Source: Candidatus Bathyarchaeota archaeon (GTDB lineage: Archaea > Thermoproteota > Bathyarchaeia > Bathyarchaeales > Bathycorpusculaceae). From it: a stretch of DNA of 49,371 nucleotides. The position numbers and the translations under genes were made by a program. Positions 16,718-45,870 of the stretch are shown here, one piece after another; position 1 is the stretch's first letter; every line of letters begins with the position of its first letter. Under the pieces are notes generated by a model. It saw only the letters and a list, made by a program, of their open reading frames with translations. It searched no databases and was not told the DNA's origin. The stretch is taken from positions 133,648 to 183,018 of the forward strand of contig PLNS01000007.1 in the NCBI GenBank assembly GCA_003141855.1, given 5' to 3'.

Positions 16718-17818
16718 ATGACTCCAAATAAGCCACCATTATACATGGTTGTTTGGCGGTGCACAAGAAACTGCGTTGGCAACTGCATGTACTGCAGCTA
16801 CACCAAAGAATACGCCAAAGATCAGGAACTAAGCACCAAAGACGCCAAAAAGATGGTCGATGAAATTCACGATTTTGGCGCAGAATGGTTTGGCATCAGT
16901 GGCGGAGAACCGCTAGTTCGCCCAGATGTTTTTGATGTTATTGCTTATGCCGAAAAAGAGTACGGCATGAAAGTCAGCCTCATCACAAGCGGCTTCGCGT
17001 GGGATGAAGAACGTTTTGAGAAACTTCACAAGTATGAAGTTCACACGGCTATAAGCATCGATGGAAACAGAGAATCAAACGAAATTATCAGACGCAAAGG
17101 CAGCTACGACAAAGCAATAAACGCTATGAAGAAACTTGGCAGCGTCGGATTACTAGACTGTTTAGTCACTACCATGACTAAATACAACATTAAGCACATG
17201 GCGCATCCAGCGGCTCTTGCAGAAGAATACAAAGCCCGCATGGTCGTCTATCACAATCTGGTTCCAGTCGGCAGGGCAGGAAGCAACATGCCTGATTTGG
17301 CTCCGACACCTGAGCAATATGAGGAAGCGTTCAACGAAATCTATGATATCCAGCGCAAGTTATACGGCAAAGTGAAAGTCAACGTTTACTCACCCTTCTA
17401 CGCACGCATCGTCCGCCAAAAGAACCCAGTGGACTTCTGGGACTGGTACCACGAAGGCTACCTTGGCAGATGCACCATCGGCGGCAACTACATCGGCATA
17501 ACAGAAAACGGCGACTACCGAAGTTGCGGCTTCCACGAAGGCTACCGCATCGGCAACGTCAAAACCAAAAAACTAAGCACAGCCTGGGATGAACTCCAAC
17601 ACAGCGAACTACACCTCAAACTACGCGACAAAAGCAACATCAAAGGCAGATGCGGAGTTTGCGAATACCGAGAAATATGCGGCGGATGCAGAACACGAGC
17701 AGAATACTACACAGGCGACCTCTTCGAATCAGACCCAGCCTGCAACTACATACCCAAAGTGCTACGCGAAGACCCCAAGTACATGCAAGCACTCGAAGTA
17801 GCGCAGAAAAAACAATAA
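16718..17818 (+). CDS. Radical SAM/SPASM protein (AhbC/AhbD/NirJ-like)
   Basis: This 366-aa protein has the radical SAM motif CVGNCMYC (C19, C23, C26), the SAM-binding GGEP near residue 64, and a C-terminal SPASM-like region CGVCEYREICGGCRTR followed by TGDLFESDPAC. It is a full-length paralogue of the protein at 9672-10766, alignable along nearly its whole length. Two paralogues of this type could be AhbC and AhbD of the alternative heme pathway, but no siroheme decarboxylase gene is in the window and other maturation roles are equally open. The last about 35 codons and the 3' flank are duplicated at 18645-18803, beyond a vapBC pair. Confidence 0.85.
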   Translation: MTPNKPPLYMVVWRCTRNCVGNCMYCSYTKEYAKDQELSTKDAKKMVDEIHDFGAEWFGISGGEPLVRPDVFDVIAYAEKEYGMKVSLITSGFAWDEERFEKLHKYEVHTAISIDGNRESNEIIRRKGSYDKAINAMKKLGSVGLLDCLVTTMTKYNIKHMAHPAALAEEYKARMVVYHNLVPVGRAGSNMPDLAPTPEQYEEAFNEIYDIQRKLYGKVKVNVYSPFYARIVRQKNPVDFWDWYHEGYLGRCTIGGNYIGITENGDYRSCGFHEGYRIGNVKTKKLSTAWDELQHSELHLKLRDKSNIKGRCGVCEYREICGGCRTRAEYYTGDLFESDPACNYIPKVLREDPKYMQALEVAQKKQ

Positions 17819-18620: not shown

Positions 18621-18758
18621 ATGGCGGGTGTATTGGTCGACTCCACAGGCGACCTCTTCGAATCAGACCCAGCCTGCAACTACATACCCAAAGTCTTGCA
18701 GGAAGACCCCAAAGCACTCGAAGCAATACGGAAAAACCCGCTCGCCAAAAAACAATAA
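18621..18758 (+). pseudogene. Duplicated 3' fragment of the SPASM rSAM gene
   Basis: An open frame of 45 codons from an ATG encodes the C-terminal end of the rSAM at 16718-17818: after about nine new residues it reads TGDLFESDPACNYIPKVL and stops with the same KKQ ending. It lacks all catalytic parts, so it is a remnant. It marks one edge of the vapBC-containing segment. Coding divergence from the intact copy is moderate, so the event is not very recent or the copy has drifted. Confidence 0.8.
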
Positions 18759-22227: not shown

Positions 22228-22283
22228 GAACATATTTGGTGCCTATTAGAAACTCATTGCAGTATCTATAGAGGGGTAGGTCG
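22228..22283 (+). repeat. Dispersed element, box A copy R1
   Basis: It begins CATATTTGGTGCCTATTAGA and ends CTATAGAGGGGTAGGTC. The same two blocks at the same spacing recur at 23431-23487 and, on the other strand, at 45812-45870. It lies in a convergent intergenic region. Confidence 0.7.
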
Positions 22284-23286: not shown

Positions 23287-23430
23287 CTTATCTCACAGTC
23301 AAACTAATAACCAGTCGCACTTAAGAGGTTTCCTACTAACAGACACCATGCCATTTTGAGTGCCACAGCGAACACATTTGAATTCTAATAGACAAGGTAT
23401 GCTGAAAACAACAGGAGGGGAGGACCTGCG

Positions 23431-23487
23431 CGAACATATTTGGAGCCTATTAGAAACTCTATGCACAACCTATAGAGGGGTAGGTCT
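23431..23487 (+). repeat. Dispersed element, box A copy R2
   Basis: It begins CGAACATATTTGGAGCCTAT and ends CCTATAGAGGGGTAGGTC. It is nearly identical to R1 at 22228-22283 in both blocks. Together with R2b it forms a composite unit of about 190 nt that matches the minus-strand unit at 45716-45870. Confidence 0.75.
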
Positions 23488-23550
23488 GTATTGGAGATTT
23501 TCCAAGCCAAAAGGAGCCGATAATTACCCTACGCTGGACTGCAGATTTCT

Positions 23551-23620
23551 CTAAGAGGGGTAGGTCGTATTGGCGTTTTTGGCAGTCATTAGTATGTTGA
23601 AAATCAGTGCTTTCCATGGT
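23551..23620 (+). repeat. Dispersed element, box B copy R2b
   Basis: It begins CTAAGAGGGGTAGGTCGTAT and continues with TGGCGTTTTTGGCAG and ATGTTGAAAATC. The reverse complement of 45716-45775 matches this block over about 55 nt with few changes, so the conserved unit reaches well beyond the GGGG core. Confidence 0.75.
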
Positions 23621-23782: not shown

Positions 23783-23841
23783 ACATATTTGGATCCTAAT
23801 AGAGGTTCTATGTTGAAACAATAGAGGGGAGGGGGAGGTCG
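23783..23841 (+). repeat. Dispersed element, box A copy R3
   Basis: It begins CATATTTGGATCCTAATAGA and ends with AATAGAGGGGAGGGGGAGGTC. Compared with R1 and R2 it has an insertion within the G-rich end. It lies about 80 nt before the start of the GPN-loop GTPase. Confidence 0.65.
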
Positions 23842-45715: not shown

Positions 45716-45775
45716 CGCAGATTTTCAACATGTTAATGGCTGCTGAAAACGCCATTACGGACCTACCCCCCTTAG
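45716..45775 (-). repeat. Dispersed element, box B copy R6
   Basis: On the minus strand it begins CTAAGGGGGGTAGGTCCGTA and continues TGGCGTTTTCAGCAG and ATGTTGAAAATC, matching R2b at 23551-23620 over about 55 nt. Confidence 0.7.
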
Positions 45776-45811
45776 GGATTCCTAGTATTTGTTTGCTTAA
45801 AGAACGTCAAT

Positions 45812-45870
45812 AGTGGCCTACCCCCTATAGGTTTCTGCAATGAACCTCTATTAGGCTCCAAATATGCCGT
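45812..45870 (-). repeat. Dispersed element, box A copy R7
   Basis: On the minus strand it begins CATATTTGGAGCCTAATAGA and ends CCTATAGGGGGTAGGCCACT. It matches R1, R2 and R3. It precedes R6 in the same order as R2 precedes R2b, so the whole unit is conserved. Confidence 0.75.

Follow-up and report, generated by a model that had tools for sequence, protein, structure and literature searches.

A family of small modular intergenic repeats in one order of Bathyarchaeia, possibly propagated by non-autonomous copying

The window analysed here is a stretch of 49,371 nucleotides (G000:C13:133648-183018) from a Bathyarchaeia MAG of 2.39 Mb (G000). In the species collection, the closest named relatives of this MAG are Candidatus Bathyarchaeota / Bathycorpusculum MAGs. 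A sequence-only reading had pointed to one composite element, consisting of a box A and a box B, at two distant sites. Both copies were found, one on the forward strand (box A, 23435-23486; box B, 23547-23610) and one on the reverse strand (45815-45866 and 45717-45779), with an identical order of boxes and, as had been described, a shorter spacer in the second (45717-45866). The list of sites was incomplete, however, because A units also occur at 22231-22282, 23376-23423 (same site as the first reported copy) and 23784-23832, so the window has four sites rather than two.

Specifically, a solitary A unit (CATATTTGGTGCCTATTAGAAACTCATTGCAGTATCTATAGAGGGGTAGGTC) lies on the forward strand at 22231-22282 (nhmmer A model 8.8e-13; R1 model 1.6e-12). 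The forward reported copy is directly preceded by a degenerate A unit on the same strand (23376-23423; nhmmer 6.6e-4; R1 4.7e-8), the first of a tandem pair, whose tandem position and spacing of ~60 bp match A-A pairs at other sites. Box A itself comprises the quasi-palindrome ATATTTGGAGCCTATTAG, then TGCAC and GAGGGGTAGGTC. The first T unit (T1, 23467-23526, forward strand) has GAGGGGTAGGTC in common with the A unit and continues with TATTGGAGATTTTCCAAGCCAAAA, and the second T unit (T2, the former box B) reads CTAAGAGGGGTAGGTC-GTATTGGCG...GTCATTAGTATGTTGAAAATC. Another forward A unit, at 23784-23832, is located ~90-135 nt upstream of an ATP_bind_1 GTPase gene. In the reverse-strand copy, T1 occupies 45793-45834 and T2 carries CCTAAGGGGGGTAGGTCCGTAATGGCGTTTTCAGCAGCCATTAACATGTTGAAAATC. 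Elsewhere in the window, a 73-nt direct repeat (92% identical, 17706-17778 and 18640-18712) lies within two adjacent ORFs, with similarity continuing downstream; judged by its sequence, it is a partial gene duplication.

The repeat goes beyond chance, because shuffling the window leaves an expectation of no A-pattern match, and G000 searched at the DNA level gave 60 matches at E<=0.001, with a best non-self E of 1.1e-21. Models based on sequence alone, made from 54 A and 44 T units, were searched against G000 and gave at least 137 A and at least 136 T matches at E<=0.1; merging matches within 400 nt resulted in about 124 sites. The case for a dispersed element with conserved blocks had been staked on further copies, and these were plentiful, with at least 132 A units in G000 at E<=0.001 and hundreds in its relatives.

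The A unit is 52 nt long (CATATTTGGAKCCTAATAG...TGCAGAAACCTATAGRGGGTAGGTC) and follows the pattern CATATTTGGAKCCTAATAG-N4-TC[AT]WTGCAGAAACCTATAGRGGGTAGGTC, of which the first ~18 nt form an imperfect palindrome. The T unit follows CCTAAGAGGGGTAGGTC-NSTATTGGCG-N-AGCCATTA-NCATGTTGAAAA. Its tail, from GGTC to ATGTTGAAAA, has a near-constant length (28 nt in 66 of 101 tails from five genomes), and the ends of the 28-nt tail are conserved around a free centre. In several copies, a TTTATATAAGGGAGGGGGAGGTC block is found downstream of T. A units recur with a period of 58-64 bp, and each sampled site contains 0-3 of them, usually accompanied by one or two T units. Read side by side and unscored, A and T appear to have diverged from one ~60-bp unit arrayed in tandem, since both would have inverted arms TATT(T)GG / CC(T)AATA, followed by [AT]TGYWGAAA and then RRGGGGTAGGTC. 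The unit has three conserved blocks, namely the imperfect palindrome (TATT(T)GG..CC(T)AATA), an [AT]TGCAGAAAC-like block and AGGGGTAGGTC. The T tail has TTTT at its centre in some genomes but AAAA in others (GTTTTC versus GAAAAC; L155-L166, G007), as if the apex between the arms were inverted, and another Bathyarchaeota contig (L072:31-100) contains two head-to-head A units with overlapping palindromes (TTTCTGCAATGAATTTCTAATAGGCGCCTAATAGAGGTTCATTGCAGAAACC).

The distribution of the repeat is narrow and patchy. The A model matched 21 of the 61 genomes comprising G000 and its relatives. Across 257 genomes of the class, A matches were confined to two families of the same order as G000, and no match outside that order was found among 300 sampled genomes of the phylum. 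Within the genus, eight genomes including G000 have more than 50 copies (54-101 matches each in G007, G013, G018, G022, G024, G025 and G029), most members have none, and copy number per genome ranges from 1 to more than 130. In a tree of 28 genus members built from the GTPase gene, at least 4-5 changes are required to explain the element-rich state, a count from a single gene in which gain and loss are indistinguishable. The subtype also differs by genome: GAAACTC in G000, GTGGTTC in G007 and TTGATTC in G149.

At the level of genomic context, 43 clusters from sampled stretches of G000 were sorted by the orientation of their upstream and downstream neighbours (same/same, 13; opposite/same, 11; same/opposite, 11; opposite/opposite, 8). 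The 70 ORFs flanking sampled sites matched 124 Pfam families, mainly housekeeping, none of which was present in more than three ORFs; PIN was the commonest (three), and no transposase family recurred. These neighbour counts and this spread of families indicate that the repeat is intergenic, neutral in orientation and without a partner class of genes. A role as part of a promoter or terminator was rejected on the random orientation with respect to genes.

Shared sites were identified by matching flanking genes between sampled sites, with the same orientation required. G000 and G007 shared two sites against ~22 expected if all were shared, and G000 and G024, a member of the sister clade, shared four against ~7; G000 and G013 had about three or four in common, and G007 and G013 about six. 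Sharing thus ran from ~9% to 57% and was higher for the closer relative, although these fractions, for the parts of the genomes sampled, are rough. Some sites are common by descent, more so between closer relatives. In the gap between phoU and pyrE (genes named from their proteins, read by eye), the element occurs in the same orientation in G000, G007 and G013 (gaps of 217, 276 and 334 nt), whereas the gap in G006, a genome without copies, is 126 nt long and element-free, with flanks too diverged to place a junction or see a duplication. At the GTPase-gene site of the window (23784-23832), the element is present in G000, G022 and G024 and weakly in G009; none was found there in five genomes that are rich in it elsewhere, nor in the remaining genus members in which the site was found.

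Two unrelated loci of G000 (L016:6069-6231 and L027:1840-2002) share a GT-rich 5' flank of 163 nt that is 99.4% identical, and the adjoining A units differ. Such an arrangement points to copying or recombination that broke at the unit. Diverged versions of the GT-rich stretch were seen in L023 and L033, and it may be a further module of the element. When near-identical copies of G007 were compared for borders, their cores were identical, their tails and flanks differed, and no clean ends emerged. ORFs between A and T units (L036, L016) were inspected by eye for a split element with a transposase, and they were not transposase-like.

Taken together, we consider the repeat a new family of small modular interspersed intergenic DNA repeats from one order of Bathyarchaeia, for which parasite-like non-autonomous copying with slow turnover is the best-supported account, at a probability of roughly 55%. 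In this account, a protein would recognise the conserved blocks as double-stranded DNA, new copies would be made in trans by non-autonomous copying or would result from ectopic recombination between units, routes of the sort proposed for BOX and REP/BIME, and copies once made would turn over slowly by vertical descent. The suggestion of a non-autonomous mobile element thereby held in part: patchiness within the genus, lineage-specific subtypes, turnover of sites and one orthologous gap with and without the element speak for it. Against it, the analysis found neither full-length near-identical copies with clean borders nor any terminal inverted repeats or target-site duplication; 43 sites aligned by both ends gave CATATTTGG...ATGTTGAAAA, without inversion of the ends. 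No transposase or other trans factor was found either, including in a Y1 (RAYT-type) search of six element-rich genomes. In addition, even spacing of the sites, described below, is not expected of a simple parasite.

In general type the repeat belongs with BOX and REP sequences, without the features by which the named families are defined (inverted ends, fold or transposase). In Streptococcus pneumoniae, BOX elements have the structure boxA-boxB(n)-boxC and possess terminal inverted repeats as well as target-site duplications, and a conserved RNA fold is predicted for them (PMC3049150). Like them, the Bathyarchaeia repeat is small, intergenic and modular, forms arrays with a variable number of modules, is patchy between related species and neighbours mostly unrelated genes. 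Unlike them, it has modules that look like versions of one ~60-bp unit, and neither inverted ends, target-site duplications nor an RNA fold were found. Prokaryotic MITEs, including those of Sulfolobus and haloarchaea (PMC10969869), are likewise short, non-coding, multicopy and dispersed, but no terminal inverted repeats or target duplication were found for the present repeat, nor a related insertion sequence, with no transposase family recurrent among the 70 flanking ORFs.

Two IMG/VR contigs touch on spread by viruses, for which they are not decisive. One, classed as viral, carries a full A+T element (L294:13052-13143) ~90-180 nt past a tyrosine integrase gene; this copy could lie in host DNA next to a provirus, or the mobile element could itself carry it. 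The other contains a 25-nt piece of an A unit (L295:3333-3357) that starts where a tRNA-like sequence has its 3' end, a usual point of integration.

The main rival explanation, possible though we doubt it, is a chromosome-wide protein-binding array that serves the host in nucleoid organisation, segregation or replication control. Each ~60-bp unit would then bind a dimeric protein at the palindrome, with an additional contact at the G-rich block. Sites were spaced more evenly than random in G000 (CV 0.78 versus 0.94, p=0.013), G007 (0.68 versus 0.95, p=0.001) and G149, a single contig of 2.73 Mb (0.66 versus 0.97, p=0.0016), against a null of uniform random placement that ignored gene boundaries, an effect that should be small at spacings of 15-60 kb; that the null was not confined to intergenic DNA nevertheless weakens the argument. 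A chromosomal role, insertion immunity or recombinational loss of close repeats could each produce such spacing. The near-constant T tail with its conserved ends and free centre, and the independence of orientation from genes, also fit an array. Conservation is higher in the A core than in its tail and surroundings, also at orthologous sites, a pattern equally compatible with selection on a binding site and with recent copying. Set against these points, most sites are not common between species, and any function of the array must be dispensable, because many genomes of the same genus lack copies altogether and copy number varies over the full range given above. We regard as rather unlikely the specific proposal that the arrays are evenly spaced chromosome-wide sites for a putative archaeal DNA-organising or replication/segregation protein, with a 60-bp unit and roughly one site every 15-60 kb, whole sets of which can be acquired or lost between species of a single genus.

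A far less probable variant of protein binding is that the units are dispersed relatives of the archaeal origin recognition box (ORB), bound by Orc1/Cdc6, perhaps by a second paralogue. The resemblance lies in a TTC-N6-GAAAC-N5/6-GGGG block, which has the TTC/GAA dyad, GAAAC and G-string of archaeal ORBs (PMC4010727) in the same order and recalls the origin boxes of these genomes, TTCCAGTAGAAAC-N3-GGGG. Real boxes of the form TTCCAGTAGAAAC-N3-GGGGTG were found upstream of cdc6-1 in G000, G007, G013, G149 and G006; four of these genomes have them in both orientations. The repeat is not an ORB (TTCCAnTnGAAAC-N3-GGGG next to cdc6/oriC), because its spacings differ, with N6 rather than N5 in the dyad and another distance to the G string, and because no A unit lies in the cdc6-1-linked origin region, where the real boxes sit; its more than 120 sites are dispersed instead. 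G006, which is free of the element, has both cdc6 genes and the same boxes. The elements ~3 kb from cdc6 genes in several genomes are no independent evidence, because they are partly inherited copies of the same sites. Canonical boxes upstream of cdc6-1 were observed in both orientations at L256:6513, 6774 and 6958, and also in L258, L260, L262 and L264; from these sequences, the region is a likely replication origin of these Bathyarchaeia.

It is very improbable that the repeats are GTAG-type REP repeats moved by RAYT (Y1) transposases. As in REP/BIME sequences of the GTAG superfamily (PMC3733652, PMC2817692), GTAGG stands beside an imperfect palindrome, and the copies are numerous, extragenic, arrayed and lineage-specific. 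The Bathyarchaeia unit is longer, though, its units are in direct rather than alternating orientation, and its palindrome shows no excess of compensatory changes. Y1_Tnp (PF01797) was absent from six element-rich genomes (G000, G007, G013, G018, G022 and G032) by a search that did find matches in 15 of the 61 genomes plus five controls. This absence is likely real, because draft gaps might hide the gene in one genome and hardly in all six.

We give equally little credit to a structured non-coding RNA or cis-regulatory RNA, which the sequence-only reading had offered as its other possibility and which the data did not support. The conserved blocks allow CCTA/TAGG and TATTGGC/GCCATTA pairings, but RNAalifold on A+T yielded five pairs, none with a compensatory change, and the named helices were no better than shuffles. 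No covariation was detected in the A unit, the T unit or the 66 equal-length T tails of five genomes, in which no helix rose above background (within-genome shuffle, all pairs). The folding energy equalled that of shuffled sequence; across 34 elements, z averaged 0.01 for the element strand and −0.52 for the opposite one. The repeat had no Rfam match, with a tRNA as the only Rfam hit in the window, and its neutral orientation to genes also speaks against this reading.

Least probable of all is that the units form a family of small translated leaders or peptides. An in-frame [AT]TG is present in the A unit, and at one orthologous site of two species (G007 and G013; L104:1506-1856 and L125:1488-1853) this unit supplies the first codons of a conserved ORF of ~116-121 aa (SMLKPIGGRSRR / SMHKPIGGRSKR), but the frame is lost in most copies, the unit period is not a multiple of three, and the codon pattern ahead of the ATG is mostly due to column composition. 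At this ORF, the repeat has probably been exapted as the N-terminus of a protein.

Bathyarchaeia are abundant in sediments and almost uncultured, and no repeat family of this kind for Bathyarchaeota/Bathyarchaeia was found in the open-access literature. With more than 120 sites per genome, wholesale presence or absence within one genus and even spacing, the question of which trans factor copies or binds the repeat becomes addressable largely by computation. The same holds for the question of whether archaeal genomes have BOX/REP-like repeats that are independent of RAYT.
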